Origin: Rhodopseudomonas faecalis
GTDB lineage: Bacteria > Pseudomonadota > Alphaproteobacteria > Rhizobiales > Xanthobacteraceae
Direction: 5' to 3'
Assembly: GCF_003217325.1 (NCBI RefSeq)
Contig: NZ_QJTI01000002.1
Coordinates: 62,001 to 126,000, forward strand
DNA length: 64,000 nt
A program made the translations under genes and the position numbers. Shown here piece after piece: positions 43,093-56,008 of the stretch. The notes under the pieces are model-generated. The model made no database searches, was not told the DNA's origin, and worked only from the letters and a program-made list of their open reading frames with translations. Each line of letters starts with the position of its first letter. Position 1 is the stretch's first letter.

Positions 43093-43151
43093 CGTTCCGT
43101 GCGCAGACCTTGTTGGCTGTGTGCGGTTCGCGCCATCAGCCCCACCCAGGC

Positions 43152-43188
43152 CGTCATGCCCGCGCTTTGTCGCGGGCGTCCACGTCTT
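43152..43188. repeat. Dispersed repeat family B (CGTCATGCCCG...CCACGTCTT), half element
   Basis: CGTCATGCCCGCG, a short loop, CGCGGGCG and CCACGTCTT. This matches the left half of the element found inside dnaE2. It sits beside family A between hpnO and the GMC oxidoreductase; no gene lies in this 265-bp gap. Confidence 0.75.
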
Positions 43189-43265
43189 AGAGTCCGTGCA
43201 GGGTGAAGACCCCGGTTCTGACGCGGCGAGCTTGGTAGCTTCTCGCGGTCGCACGAGCTGAAGAA

Positions 43266-50085: not shown

Positions 50086-51562
50086 ACCGCGCGTCGTCGT
50101 CGCCAAACGCGACAACGCGCTCGTGCTGGTGGCCTGCGACGCCCGCGCGGCGCAAGGCGGGCTGACGCCCGGCATGCCGCTCGCCACCGCGCGCGCCATG
50201 CATCCCTCGCTCGACGTGATCGAGCATGATGCCGTGGCCGATGCCGCGCTGCTTTCAGCGATCGCCGATTGGTGCGACCGTTTTACCCCGCTGGTGGCGC
50301 TGGATGGCGATGACGGCCTGTGCCTCGACATCACCGGCTGCGCCCATCTGTTCGGCGACGAACAGGGGCTGCTTACCGCGCTGCTGCAGGGGCTGCAGCG
50401 CCAGGGTTTTGCGGCGCGCGCTGCGATTGCCGGCACCGCGGTGGCGGCGCGGGCGCTGAGCCGCGGTGCGCCGCGCACCATCGTGCCGCCGGGCGGCGAG
50501 GCCGAGGCGGTGGCGCCGCTGCCGGTGGCGGTGCTTGGCGTTGATCCCGGCATCGTGCGCGGGCTGCGCCGCGCGGGGCTGGTGACGATCGGCGATGTGC
50601 TGGCGCGGCAGCCCTCGGAACTGGCGGCGCGGTTTGGTGCTGATTTTGTCGCGGTGCTGCGCCAGGCCAGCGGCGCGGACGATGCGCCGATCTCGCCGCG
50701 CCGTCCGGCACCGGACTATGTGGTCGACAAGCGCTTTGCCGAGCCGGTGGCGACGCTTGAAGTGATCATGCCGACGCTGCTGGCGCTGGCGCGGCTGTTG
50801 ATCGCGGCGATGGAAAAGAGCGGCAAGGGCGCGCGGCAATTGCTGGCGTCGTTTTTCCGCAGCGACGGCGCGGTGCGCACCATCATGGTCGAGGCCGGTC
50901 AGCCGGTGACGCGCACCGAAATGGTCGAGCGTTTGTTCGCCGAAAAGCTCGATGCGCTCGCTGATCCGCTCGATCCCGGTTTCGGCTTCGATCTGATCCG
51001 GCTCGCCGCAAGTCACACCGTGCTGGTCGATGCCGCGCAGCGCGGCTTTGATAGCACCGCTCATCAGGCCGAGGATGTCGCGGCGCTGGCCGACACGCTG
51101 TCGGCGCGGCTCGGCGCGCGGCGCGTGCTGCGTTATCTGCCGCAGGACAGCCATCTGCCGGAGCGCGCGGCGCTGGCGGTGCCGGTGCAGCATTGTCCGC
51201 CGCAAACCTGTCACGAGACGCCGTGGCCGGGTCGCGCCGACGAGCCGCCTTTGCGGCCGCTGCGGCTGCTGCAACCGCCCGAGCCGGTCGAGGTGCTGGC
51301 CGAAGTGCCCGATGGGCCGCCGGCGCAATTCACCTGGCGCCGCGTCACCCATCGCATCGCCCGCGCCGAAGGCCCGGAGCGGATCGCGATGGAATGGTGG
51401 CGCGCGTCCGAGCCGGGCCTGACCCGCGATTACTTCCGGATCGAGGACGAGGTCGGCGCGCGGTTCTGGCTGTACCGCGACGGGCTCTATGGCCGCGAGG
51501 TGTTGCCCAGCGCCGATGGCCACGGCCAACCGCGCTGGTATGTGCACGGCCTGTTCGCGTGA
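49976..51562 (+). CDS. imuB: Y-family polymerase-like mutasome protein ImuB
   Basis: 528 residues of the Y-family DNA polymerase fold but lacking the catalytic acidic residues: the N-terminus reads LGLWLPRLPTDRIER where active polymerases have DMDxFFA, and the second site is LDGDDGLCLDITGCAHLFG. ImuB acts as adaptor linking the beta clamp, ImuA and DnaE2. Helix-hairpin-helix (VRGLRRAGLVTIGDVLARQP) and little-finger segments follow. Second gene of the SOS operon; a 316-bp repeat-filled gap separates it from dnaE2, more than is usual. Confidence 0.93.
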   Translation: MRAASVNRRRILGLWLPRLPTDRIERLSSPRDGSPAEPRVVVAKRDNALVLVACDARAAQGGLTPGMPLATARAMHPSLDVIEHDAVADAALLSAIADWCDRFTPLVALDGDDGLCLDITGCAHLFGDEQGLLTALLQGLQRQGFAARAAIAGTAVAARALSRGAPRTIVPPGGEAEAVAPLPVAVLGVDPGIVRGLRRAGLVTIGDVLARQPSELAARFGADFVAVLRQASGADDAPISPRRPAPDYVVDKRFAEPVATLEVIMPTLLALARLLIAAMEKSGKGARQLLASFFRSDGAVRTIMVEAGQPVTRTEMVERLFAEKLDALADPLDPGFGFDLIRLAASHTVLVDAAQRGFDSTAHQAEDVAALADTLSARLGARRVLRYLPQDSHLPERAALAVPVQHCPPQTCHETPWPGRADEPPLRPLRLLQPPEPVEVLAEVPDGPPAQFTWRRVTHRIARAEGPERIAMEWWRASEPGLTRDYFRIEDEVGARFWLYRDGLYGREVLPSADGHGQPRWYVHGLFA

Positions 51563-51878
51563 GGGCAGGCGCTAGGGCCAGAGGCTAGGCTTAGTCATTG
51601 CGAACGCAGCATCGCACAATCTCTCTTTCGTCATTGCGAGCGCAGCGACGACGAACAATGTCCCTTTCGTCATTGCGAGCGAAGCGACGTCGAACAATGT
51701 CTCCGCCGTCATTGCGAGGAGGCGAAGCCGACGAAGCAATCCAGAAGCGCCGGTGCTCTGAGTGTTTGGATTGCTTCGTCGCGAAGCCTGTGCCCGGACG
51801 GCGCAAAGCGCCGATCCGGGTGCTCCTCGCAATGACGAAAAGAAACGTCATCTGAAAATCTCATCCGAGGCGGATCGC
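51563..51878. repeat. Array of family A repeats between imuB and dnaE2
   Basis: Four direct copies of GTCATTGCGAG-type sequence start at 51594, 51630, 51669 and 51708 (spacing 36, 39, 39 bp). The last runs to GAAGCAATCCAG; an inverted partner begins at TTGGATTGCTTCGTCGCG near 51770 and ends at CTCGCAATGAC (51836). The array fills most of the spacer; no gene is present. Spacing and degeneracy differ from CRISPR. Confidence 0.88.
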
Positions 51879-54800
51879 ATGATCGCGCGTTACGCCGAAA
51901 TCGGCGTCACCAGTAATTTCTCGTTTCTGCACGGGGCCTCGCATCCGCAGGACTATGTGCAGCAGGCGAGCCTGCTTGGCCTGGATGCGATCGGCATTGC
52001 CGACCGCAACACGCTGGCCGGCGTGGTGCGCGCCTATAGCGAGCTTGGCAATGACGAACTGATCCACAAACCAAAGCTGCTGATCGGCGCGCGGCTGTGT
52101 TTTGCCGACGGCACGCCGGAGCTACTAGCCTATCCCACCGACCGCGCCGCCTATGGCCGGCTGTGCCGGCTGCTCAGCGCCGGCAAGATGCGCGCCGATA
52201 AAGGCGAGTGCCATCTGACCTTCGCCGACCTCGAAGCCTTCGTCCCCGAGCCCACCACGTCGTCATGGCCGGGATCGCGGCCACCCACGTCTTGGCAGCG
52301 GCAACGGTTGAAAGACGTGGCTGCCCGGCCCAAGGCCGGGCATGACGATCCCCAAAAACAGCACTCGCAAATCCTGCTGGTCTTGATACCGCCTTATCGT
52401 TTTCATGCCGCCGAGATCGCCGCTGCCTTGCAGCGTCTGACGGCGTTGCAGCGGGACGGCGTCTGGCTGGCGCTGGCGCCCTATTATCGCGGTGATGACA
52501 AGCGGCGGTTGGCGCGGCTGCGGCATGTTGCGGCGGCGGCGCAGGTGCCGTGCATCGCCAGCAATGACGTGCTCTATCACCACCCGGATCGGCGCGCGTT
52601 GCAGGACGTGCTGTCATGCGTGCGCAATAAGACCACGCTCGATGCAGCCGGGCGGCACCTTGAAAGCAATGCCGAGCGTCATCTCAAGCCGCCGGCGGAA
52701 ATGGCGCGGCTGTTCCGCGCCGATCCGGAGGCGATCGCCGAGACGCTGCGCTTTGCGAGCCGCATCTCGTTTTCGCTCGATGAGCTGAAATATCACTATC
52801 CCGATGAGCCGGTGCCACCCGGCAAGAGCGCGCAGCAGCATCTGCATGACCTCACTGAACTTGGCATCACGCAGTATTTTCCAAACGGCATCAGCGCCAA
52901 GCTGCGCGCCACCATCGACAAGGAACTGGCGATCATCGCGCGCCGCGGCTACGCGCATTATTTCCTGACCGTGCACGACATTGTCCGCTATGCGCGCTCG
53001 CAAGGCATTTTGTGCCAGGGTCGCGGCTCGGCCGCCAATTCGGCGGTGTGCTACGTGCTCGGCATCACCTGCGTCGATCCGACCGAAATCGATCTGTTGT
53101 TCGAGCGCTTCGTGTCCGAGGAGCGCGACGAGCCGCCCGATATCGACGTCGATTTCGAGCACTCGCGGCGCGAAGAGGTGATGCAATACATTTATCGCCG
53201 CTATGGCCGGCACCGCGCCGCGATCGTCGCCACCGTGATCCATTATCGGCCGCGTTCGGCGATCCGCGATGTCGGCAAGGTGCTGGGCTTGTCCGAAGAC
53301 GTCTGCGCCGCGCTCGCCGATACGGTGTGGGGCTCGTGGGGCAAGGGGCTCAGCGAGATGCAGGTGCGGCAGGCCGGGCTTGACCCGACAAACCCGATGA
53401 TCACCCGCGCGGTCGAGCTTGCCACCGAGCTGATCGGCTTTCCGCGCCATCTGTCGCAGCATGTCGGCGGCTATGTGCTGACCCAGGACCGGCTCGACGA
53501 ATTCGTGCCGATCGGCAACGCGGCGATGGCCGATCGCAGTTTCATCGAATGGGACAAGGACGACATCGACGCGGTCAAGATGATGAAGGTCGATGTGCTG
53601 GCGCTCGGCATGCTGACCTGCATCCGCAAGGCGTTCGATCTGATCAGCAAGCACAAGGGCACGGCGCTGCAACTGTCCGACATCAAATCGCAGGACGATA
53701 ACGAGGTCTACCAGATGCTGCAGCGGGGCGAGTCGATCGGCGTGTTTCAGGTCGAGAGCCGCGCGCAGATGAACATGCTGCCGCGCCTTAAGCCGCGCTG
53801 CTTCTATGACCTCGTGATCGAAGTCGCGATCGTGCGGCCCGGGCCGATCCAGGGCGACATGGTGCATCCTTATCTGCGCCGCCGGAATGGTCAGGAGCCG
53901 GTGGTGTATCCATCGCCGGCCGGGCATGCCGGCGAGAAGAATGAGCTGCAACAGATATTGGGCAAGACGCTGGGCGTGCCGCTGTTTCAGGAGCAGGCGA
54001 TGCGGATCGCGATCGAGGCCGCGCATTTCACGCCTGACGAAGCCAATCAGCTGCGCCGCGCGATGGCGACCTTTCGCAATGTCGGCACCATCGGCAAGTT
54101 CGAAAGCAAGATGATCGGCAATCTGGTGAAGCGCGGCTATGACCCGATATTCGCGCAAAACTGTTTTGAGCAGATCAAGGGCTTTGGCTCCTACGGCTTT
54201 CCGGAAAGCCATGCCGCCAGTTTCGCCAAGCTGGTCTATGTCTCGGCCTGGCTGAAATGTCTGCATCCCGATGCGTTCTGCTGCGCGCTGCTCAATTCGC
54301 AGCCGATGGGTTTTTATGCGCCGGCGCAGATTGTTGGCGATGCGCGCCGCAACGGCGTCGAGGTGCGGCCGATCGACATTGCGTTCAGCGAGGGCCAGTG
54401 CACGCTGGAGGCGCATTGCGGCCGACATCATGCGGTGCGGCTCGGCTTTCGGCAGATCGACGGCTTTCGCTGGGCCGATCCCGATGAGGAGCGGGTGCGG
54501 CGCGCCGCCGGCGAACCGCCGAGCGATGATTGGGCAGCGCGGATCGTTGCGGCGCGGGCGCGCGGCGCGTTCAGCTCGCTCGAGCAGTTCGCGCGCGTCA
54601 CGCGCCTGCCGAAGCGCGCGCTGATCCTGCTCGCCGATGCCGATGCGTTCCGCTCGTTGCAGCTCGATCGCCGCGCGGCGCTGTGGGCGGTACGGCGGCT
54701 GCCCGACGACGTGCCGCTGCCATTGTTCGAGGCCGCGAGCGCGCGCGAGCAGCGCGACGAAGCCGCGGCGCCGCTGCCGCAGATGCCGCTCGCCGAACAT

Positions 54801-55328
54801 GTTGTGGCTGATTATCAGACCGTGCGGCTGTCGCTGCAGGGCCATCCGATGCAGTTTCTGCGCATGCTGTTTGCGCGTGAACGGGTCGAGACCTGCCAGG
54901 CAATTTCCGAACAGCGCAGCAGCGGCCGGCTCACGCGCTGCGCCGGCGTGGTGCTGGTGCGGCAGCGGCCGGGCAGCGCCAAGGGCGTGGTGTTCATCAC
55001 GCTGGAGGACGAGACCGGGATCGCCAATCTGGTGGTGTGGCCGGCGGTGCTGGAACGCTATCGCAAAGAAGTGATGGGCGCGCGGCTGTTGTGGGCGGAA
55101 GGGCGGATTCAAGCGAGCCCGGAGGGCGTGGTGCATCTGGTGGCCGAGCGGCTGGTCGATCGCAGCGCCGAGCTCCAGCAATTGTCCGACAGCCTGGTCG
55201 CGCCGCCCGGCATCAGCCGCGACGAGCCGCTCAATGATGATCGCCGCGACCATCCCAATGAGCCGGCACAGCCGGTCCGTCATCCGCGCGACGTGCGCAT
55301 CCTGCCCAAATCGCGGGATTTTCATTGA
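51879..55328 (+). CDS. dnaE2: Error-prone DNA polymerase DnaE2
   Basis: C-family polymerase that performs translesion synthesis in the ImuA-ImuB-DnaE2 mutasome. 1149 residues. N-terminal PHP domain (YAEIGVTSNFSFLHGASHP), polymerase palm aspartates in PPDIDVDFEHSRREEVM near residue 420, QGRGSAANSAVCYVLGI, HHH and OB-fold regions (GVVFITLEDETGIANLVVWP), and the typical ending HPRDVRILPKSRDFH. About residues 127-158 (SWPGSRPPTSWQRQR and following) are encoded by a dispersed palindromic repeat inserted in frame, absent from DnaE2 as I know it. The remainder is collinear with the family, so the gene is probably still functional. Confidence 0.95.
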   Translation: MIARYAEIGVTSNFSFLHGASHPQDYVQQASLLGLDAIGIADRNTLAGVVRAYSELGNDELIHKPKLLIGARLCFADGTPELLAYPTDRAAYGRLCRLLSAGKMRADKGECHLTFADLEAFVPEPTTSSWPGSRPPTSWQRQRLKDVAARPKAGHDDPQKQHSQILLVLIPPYRFHAAEIAAALQRLTALQRDGVWLALAPYYRGDDKRRLARLRHVAAAAQVPCIASNDVLYHHPDRRALQDVLSCVRNKTTLDAAGRHLESNAERHLKPPAEMARLFRADPEAIAETLRFASRISFSLDELKYHYPDEPVPPGKSAQQHLHDLTELGITQYFPNGISAKLRATIDKELAIIARRGYAHYFLTVHDIVRYARSQGILCQGRGSAANSAVCYVLGITCVDPTEIDLLFERFVSEERDEPPDIDVDFEHSRREEVMQYIYRRYGRHRAAIVATVIHYRPRSAIRDVGKVLGLSEDVCAALADTVWGSWGKGLSEMQVRQAGLDPTNPMITRAVELATELIGFPRHLSQHVGGYVLTQDRLDEFVPIGNAAMADRSFIEWDKDDIDAVKMMKVDVLALGMLTCIRKAFDLISKHKGTALQLSDIKSQDDNEVYQMLQRGESIGVFQVESRAQMNMLPRLKPRCFYDLVIEVAIVRPGPIQGDMVHPYLRRRNGQEPVVYPSPAGHAGEKNELQQILGKTLGVPLFQEQAMRIAIEAAHFTPDEANQLRRAMATFRNVGTIGKFESKMIGNLVKRGYDPIFAQNCFEQIKGFGSYGFPESHAASFAKLVYVSAWLKCLHPDAFCCALLNSQPMGFYAPAQIVGDARRNGVEVRPIDIAFSEGQCTLEAHCGRHHAVRLGFRQIDGFRWADPDEERVRRAAGEPPSDDWAARIVAARARGAFSSLEQFARVTRLPKRALILLADADAFRSLQLDRRAALWAVRRLPDDVPLPLFEAASAREQRDEAAAPLPQMPLAEHVVADYQTVRLSLQGHPMQFLRMLFARERVETCQAISEQRSSGRLTRCAGVVLVRQRPGSAKGVVFITLEDETGIANLVVWPAVLERYRKEVMGARLLWAEGRIQASPEGVVHLVAERLVDRSAELQQLSDSLVAPPGISRDEPLNDDRRDHPNEPAQPVRHPRDVRILPKSRDFH
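52257..52350 (+). repeat. Family B palindromic element inserted in frame in dnaE2
   Basis: Left half CGTCATGGCCGGG ... CCACGTCTT, a 15-20 bp centre, and right half AAGACGTGG ... GGCCGGGCATGACGATC, mirror images of each other. The left half matches the intergenic copy at 43152. No stop codon or frameshift results, and roughly 31 codons of dnaE2 derive from it. Confidence 0.85.
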
Positions 55329-55475
55329 AACGGCTGCTCGTCATTGCAAGGCGCACAGCGACCCAGCCAATGAGCAAGCGTAGTGTTGGACTTCCTTCTT
55401 GCCGGGTTTGATCCGGCCATTCATCCTGCATCACCATCGATACCGAATAGACCGACACAGAGGACACCACGCGCC
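55329..55475. other. Spacer with family A half-repeat after dnaE2
   Basis: CGTCATTGCAAGGCGCACAG at about 55339-55358 is a decayed family A head. No gene and no clear terminator. Confidence 0.6.
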
Positions 55476-56008
55476 ATGCCATCGCCCCGCGAGCTGCTTG
55501 CCGATCTTTGGGCCGTGCTGGGCGGCGATGCGGCCGCGCTCGAGCAGGTGACGCTGACCGGCGATGAGCCGCGCGCGGTTTTGACTCGCTGGTGCAATGC
55601 GCGACTGGCTTCAATCACGCCGAAGGGCAGGCGGCTGGGAGCAACGGCCCCAAGGAATTGCCCAAGGAACTACCGATGCAGATCCTCGATCACGCCACCG
55701 GCTATCTGATGGCGGCCGGTGCGATGATGGCGCTTGCCCGGCAGGCGCGCGGAGGTGGCAGCTGGCATGTGGAAGTGTCGCTGGCGCGCATCGGGCAATG
55801 GCTGTGGGACATGGGCCGGCTGCCGCAGGGGCTGGCTGCGCCGGACATCATCCGCGATACGATCGCGCCGCTGCTGCAGCGCTTGCCGTCTGGCTTTGGT
55901 GAGCTTGAAGCCGTGCGTCACGCGGCCGAGTTGTCGGCGACGCCGGCAGCATGGACCAGACCAGCGATGCCGCTCGGCAGCCATCCGCCGCGCTGGAGTT
56001 CCGGTTAG
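55476..56008 (+). pseudogene. Decayed class III CoA-transferase (CaiB/BaiF) gene
   Basis: The first 30 codons (MPSPRELLADLWAVLGGDAA, then TLTGDEPRA) are the start of a CaiB/BaiF-type CoA-transferase. From about 55579 another frame gives FDSLVQCATGFNHAEGQAAG and ILDHATGYLMAAGAMMALAR, which is the conserved C-terminal third of the same family. Several hundred intervening residues are missing and the two parts are in different frames, so an internal deletion has destroyed the gene. The partial duplication KELPKELP is another sign of decay. The 3' end shifts again after SWHVEVSLARIGQWLW-like sequence. Confidence 0.78.

Follow-up and report, generated by a model that had tools for sequence, protein, structure and literature searches.

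An in-frame palindromic repeat resembling CGTC-3 dimers in the dnaE2 gene of Rhodopseudomonas

How does a small palindromic repeat come to be read as protein inside a polymerase gene, and what becomes of it there? The question is raised by dnaE2, which encodes an error-prone DNA polymerase at positions 51879-55328 (plus strand) of the window, the 64,000-nucleotide stretch of Rhodopseudomonas faecalis contig NZ_QJTI01000002.1 analysed here. DnaE2 acts in induced mutagenesis. The gene was recognised by NCBIfam NF004225 (1580.9 bits), with a Pfam PHP domain at residues 11-105, and the DnaE2 profile matches Pol III alpha structures (e.g. 4jom, 5fku). The likely start, ATG 51879, is taken from homologues, as the open reading frame itself opens at GTG 51762. 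Our preferred answer, to which we give a probability of about 0.7, is that the repeat is a tolerated dimer of CGTC-type repetitive extragenic palindromes (REPs) in a loop of DnaE2, rewritten by recombination.

Anatomy and site of the repeat

A preliminary description of this DNA had placed a palindromic dispersed repeat in frame in the PHP-coding region of dnaE2, at 52257-52350. We located the dimer inside these limits, as a palindrome of 87 nt (CGTC...GACG, 52261-52347, residues about 128-157), and a profile built from genus copies matched 52260-52348 with E=1.9e-17. The repeat is translated in frame as a stop-free, hydrophilic peptide of the SWPG..RPST...VDARxKPGHDG type. From sequence and fold, the left REP occupies 52261-52287 on the plus strand, with its CGTC tag at 52261-52264, and the right REP 52319-52347 on the minus strand, with a 5-nt loop, a CCA-type tail and its tag appearing as GACG at 52344-52347, so that both outer unit ends are tagged. 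Between them lie the inner arms CCACGTCTT (52285-52293, plus strand) and AAGACGTGG (52312-52320, plus strand), recognised as an inverted repeat and in the fold, around a middle (52294-52311, plus strand) that is variable among genus copies. The longer inverted arms 52278-52293 and 52312-52327 are 88 % complementary. As RNA, the segment 52250-52355 folds at -56.2 kcal/mol (z -3.78), a stability reached by only one of 200 shuffles.

The element resembles the head-to-head CGTC-3 dimers of Di Nocera et al. (2013, PMC3733652; here and below as given in the accessible part of that paper), which have a CGTC tag, a 9-bp stem, a 5-nt loop and a CCA-type tail; the likeness is one of description. It had been called complete: the dimer is indeed present, but the window copy is somewhat degenerate. 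Set against a 9-bp stem starting with A-T and a 5-nt loop, its left unit departs by a shortened stem and its right unit by one end mismatch. Among 12 intact orthologues from the genus, 270 of 276 cells of the two REP stems and the inner helix are paired, a G-C stem pair is swapped to C-G in three copies, and all 12 carry TCCACG after the left stem as CCA-type tail. The tail bases are able to pair with the tail of the partner unit. An Rfam search of 51500-55500 returned nothing at E<=1.

The repeat-encoded segment probably forms a disordered loop. In an AlphaFold2 model of DnaE2 built from 40 aligned sequences (mean predicted local distance difference test score, pLDDT, 78.7; predicted template modelling score 0.79), pLDDT fell below 50 at residues 125-160 and 14-20. 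The former sit between a helix (115-121) and a strand (165-170), and the adjoining blocks score 91 and 86, which is consistent with the new surface loop suggested at the outset.

To compare the site we used an N-terminal DnaE2 query, which matched in 59 of 61 genomes (some matches being DnaE1). The site could be measured between anchors on both sides in 109 of 110 loci, of which L031-L034 duplicate four genus genomes; in the remaining locus (L015, genome G011) the contig breaks off within the element, leaving no left anchor, and the site was scored by eye. Exactly the same site is occupied in 14 genus genomes by inserts 111-216 nt long, each length divisible by 3, and with G011 the dimer is found in 15 of the 16 Rhodopseudomonas genomes examined. 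The whole dnaE2 frame is open (1150-1199 aa) in 13 of these 15, the other two (G008 and G011) being cut by contig ends. The site is empty in one genus member, G006, and in all 76 loci from nearby genera (L035-L110); these outgroup loci come from the 80 best among 585 confirmed stretches and thus represent near relatives. Conservation of the segment in all homologues, which had been raised as an argument against an insertion, therefore holds for 15 of 16 genus genomes but for none of the 76 outgroup loci. An assembly error is very unlikely, and both it and a private insertion were rejected, because 14 other genus genomes carry the dimer at the same site. Against the empty allele, the whole insert (52242-52364, plus strand, by anchored comparison) measures 123 nt versus 3 nt, a net gain of 40 codons and not of about 31 as first estimated, since the repeat has unique spacers on either side. 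A minisatellite-like PSASIHQ stretch of varying number stands ahead of the repeat in many strains (e.g. L012, L014).

Evolution of the element and competing explanations

In the 12 intact copies, third codon positions of the arms differ at 0.024, against 0.266 in the left flank and 0.321 in the right. For the right flank and for resampling we used the 11 copies flanked on both sides, as the G008 contig ends in the right flank; their arm value is 0.026, which was matched by none of 5000 randomly drawn sets of flank sites and none of 305 contiguous windows. Third positions, not first and second, are the most constrained class in the arms, opposite to what coding constraint usually produces. In the 26-nt middle, differences amount to 0.45-0.57 at every codon position. 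The stems seem to evolve like the dispersed repeat and unlike the surrounding gene.

Sorted by eye over 15 genomes, the middles fall into an alpha type (8), beta (2), gamma (2), delta (1) and the type of the window (1), with a shortened copy in G014, which is partly deleted while its dnaE2 frame is still open. We built a tree from the joined dnaE2 flanks of 14 genus genomes and four outgroups. In it, the sisters G007 and G010 (support 100) bear different middles. The element of G003 is identical to that of G010 at 89 of 89 nt, with flanks of 87 % and 83 % identity. That the middle has been replaced in sister species points to ongoing exchange.

By the reading we prefer, an ancestor of Rhodopseudomonas would have acquired a dispersed, probably non-autonomous CGTC-REP dimer in the PHP-domain loop of its dnaE2. 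The dimer may have survived because its length modulo 3 was kept and its frame was stop-free and hydrophilic, yielding a disordered loop that DnaE2 tolerates; the open frames and the model are direct results, and the tolerance is what we infer from them. The element would then have gone on evolving as a repeat, in keeping with the arms preserved at the nucleotide level and the middle replaced several times in the copies compared, most simply through homologous recombination among strains, with dispersed copies, or both. A polymerase function of the insert is not needed to explain the data.

Several points weigh against this account. The insertion event itself we infer from site comparison. G006, without the insert, is nested inside the dnaE2 tree, which calls for loss, allele replacement or repeated gain. 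The degenerate copies of the window and G014 and the contig-cut one of G011 are excluded from the arm test, and frozen third positions would equally follow from selection on a hairpin in mRNA or DNA. No donor copy was found for any middle, the best paralogue (for the beta type) being 92 % identical over 86 nt. The accessible part of PMC3733652, moreover, reports that no dedicated transposase for CGTC REPs was found.

We regard it as unlikely that different dimers inserted independently and more than once at a single target site, in place of one insertion with later replacement. Such a history would suit the at least five middle types and the left spacers of G012 and G000/G014, which lack the PSASIHQ-like stretch found in others (G000 being the window genome). 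However, 11 of 14 aligned inserts share a start of the form F-[IV]-x-E, and the alpha middle, present in 8 of 15, occurs on both sides of the tree root.

There is also only a small chance that the hairpin is maintained for a role in dnaE2 mRNA, such as slowing ribosomes or tuning decay so as to limit the mutagenic polymerase. Paired arms conserved at the nucleotide level and a strong fold speak for such a role, but the hairpin is degenerate in the window genome and partly deleted in G014, with frames open in both, and is missing in G006. The dispersed copies share similar arms, so homogenisation would suffice, although these copies were found via arm similarity, which biases the comparison. 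That the loop peptide was recruited as a modifier of DnaE2, acting on PHP function, ImuB contact or fidelity, is very improbable: all but one of the 16 genus genomes examined have the insert and repeat-coded inserts stand in the next loop of other lineages, but the middle differs at 45-57 % of sites over all codon positions, the arms are most constrained at third positions and the model shows disorder.

Copies elsewhere and inserts in other lineages

The repeat is dispersed in its own genome, mostly between genes as judged from open reading frames and not from annotation, and dispersed copies occur in five Rhodopseudomonas genomes. G000 (4.07 Mb, 62 contigs) holds at least 42 matches at no fewer than 40 places among the best 40 of 208 candidates, two of the places matching on both strands. 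In 464 kb (a 400-kb sample and the window) we counted 29 copies including the one in dnaE2, or about 62 per Mb. The recurrence of the left half between genes at 43152 was borne out by a half element at 43151-43208, which the profile matches on both strands, best at 43152-43205 (E=2.5e-4). Nine of 20 other sample copies of measurable length share the length class of the dnaE2 copy modulo 3 (hand count), a weak comparison because the dnaE2 copies share descent. G006 has the fewest repeat-peptide matches (7) among the 16 genus genomes.

Two copies lie in uninterrupted frames above 600 aa in the own genome (among the 150 matches listed, the best 150 of 356 candidates), in dnaE2 and in an MmeI-type restriction-modification gene (L169:3037-6573, G000:C20), where an in-frame REP dimer follows the target-recognition domain in the same frame as in dnaE2. 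The gene was matched in 9 of 61 genomes, the matches of G008 and G011 stopping short of the dimer site. Its dimer is in frame in G000, G007, G013, G002 and G020, the last from another genus (150, 150, 150, 177 and 153 nt); in G002 a stop at another place interrupts the gene. The dimer is missing from five homologues (G033, G021, two Rhizobium plasmids and one Roseibium plasmid). A survey of 18 stretches around candidate matches had yielded 11 frames that span a copy and extend at least 40 aa beyond it on each side; of the five candidate interrupted proteins inspected, the MmeI-type case alone was confirmed by family search. The purL-like frame (L170) was rejected since the repeat precedes the likely start, L168, L171 and L178 were judged by eye to be spurious or antisense frames, and likewise by eye the long frames L191, L193 and L204 of the own-genome sample are not genes interrupted by the repeat.

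In four other alphaproteobacterial lineages the next loop of DnaE2 holds dispersed palindromic repeats of other kinds: long inserts in the PHP region of G017, G051, G072 and G097 fold better than shuffled sequence (z -3.1 to -6.4), and each has further copies in the genome that carries it. A fifth, G038 (L254, G038:C139), is less clear, with three inserts of 71-91 aa that are partly repeat-like (z -1.0, -1.6 and -4.5), further copies on the same contig among the matches listed, and a related family dispersed in G045. These loops also hold long non-repeat inserts, as in G028, G024 and G045, which served as controls (z +0.2, +1.6 and +1.4; self-matches only among the matches listed). None of these five repeat inserts is at the Rhodopseudomonas site itself: each occupies the neighbouring loop, beyond the strand that comes after that site. 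Of the 62 usable DnaE2 sequences of the class sample, two (G072 and G097) have more than 20 extra residues in this region. Among about 96 non-genus DnaE2 (34 relatives and the 62 of the class sample) we counted 5 with repeat-derived inserts; among about 177 DnaE1 there was one, G108, with a long insert, whatever its kind. The excess in DnaE2 is only suggestive (Fisher p=0.022 pooled, 0.079 and 0.24 per sample, 0.053 pooled without G038), the denominators being hand-counted and some DnaE1 matches not spanning the whole PHP query. It is doubtful, if conceivable, that the PHP loop region of alphaproteobacterial DnaE2 is a preferred and reused landing place for unrelated families of palindromic repeats, and that a repeat once settled there still belongs to its genome's network of recombining repeats, the loop being rewritten at intervals and the DNA hairpin preserved, with a possible effect on induced mutagenesis.

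Upstream of dnaE2 lies an imuB-like gene, matched by the family models impB/mucB/samB and DNA polymerase IV, whose product we take to be ImuB. The gap between the two genes (51563-51878) holds a further repeat of the CGTCATTGCGAG type. Across this gap, the YAEIG motif lies 328 nt away in the window genome. Of the 14 genus loci with the insert, 13 have a distance of 134-500 nt and G001 one of 24 nt; the insert-free G006 has 28 nt and three outgroup loci 26-32 nt. These are distances only. The imuB-like gene of G017 (L261, G017:C6:130700-131200) contains an in-frame palindromic stretch, HSRASGNPE...

Relation to known repeats and meaning

In the accessible part of PMC3733652, CGTC REPs are placed mostly in alphaproteobacteria, and CGTC-3 is recorded for each of the six R. 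palustris strains investigated, so that the first impression of an insert unusual in this group finds no support. As in the CGTC-3 dimers of R. palustris, the units are paired and inverted, and intragenic cases were reported there, with DnaE2 among the REP-tagged proteins. Since both these REPs and a REP-tagged DnaE2 had already been reported, the kind is known. The parallel drawn initially with the palindromic elements (RPE) of Rickettsia was apt: those also lie in frame within genes, and the same source equates RPE-4 and RPE-6 of R. conorii with CGTC REPs, although the genus is another and the likeness again one of description. Br-REP1 and Br-REP2, palindromic repeats of Bradyrhizobium and Rhodopseudomonas (PMC5082802, accessible part), differ in consensus (Br-REP1 CCGGAATCTCGAGATTCCGG) and were described from intergenic regions and 3′ untranslated regions. 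What goes beyond the CGTC-3 account, as far as that source could be consulted, is one site followed through a genus, a replaced middle and frozen third positions. On the genus-wide site, the middle replacement or the frozen arms we found no paper by title or abstract, in a search whose coverage excluded most subscription journals, bioRxiv and the additional files of PMC3733652.

The dnaE2 case is therefore a known kind of in-frame REP dimer with an instructive evolutionary pattern, in which the DNA appears to be recombining. Any effect of the loop on DnaE2, purely hypothetical here, would matter, given the role of the polymerase in induced mutagenesis. Whether CGTC repeats die out or stay mobilisable was left open in PMC3733652, in the part accessible, and the replacement of the middle in sister species bears on this question. 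Here a small palindromic repeat can be traced through a genus in an open, conserved gene, where constraint at the nucleotide level overrides evolution at the codon level.
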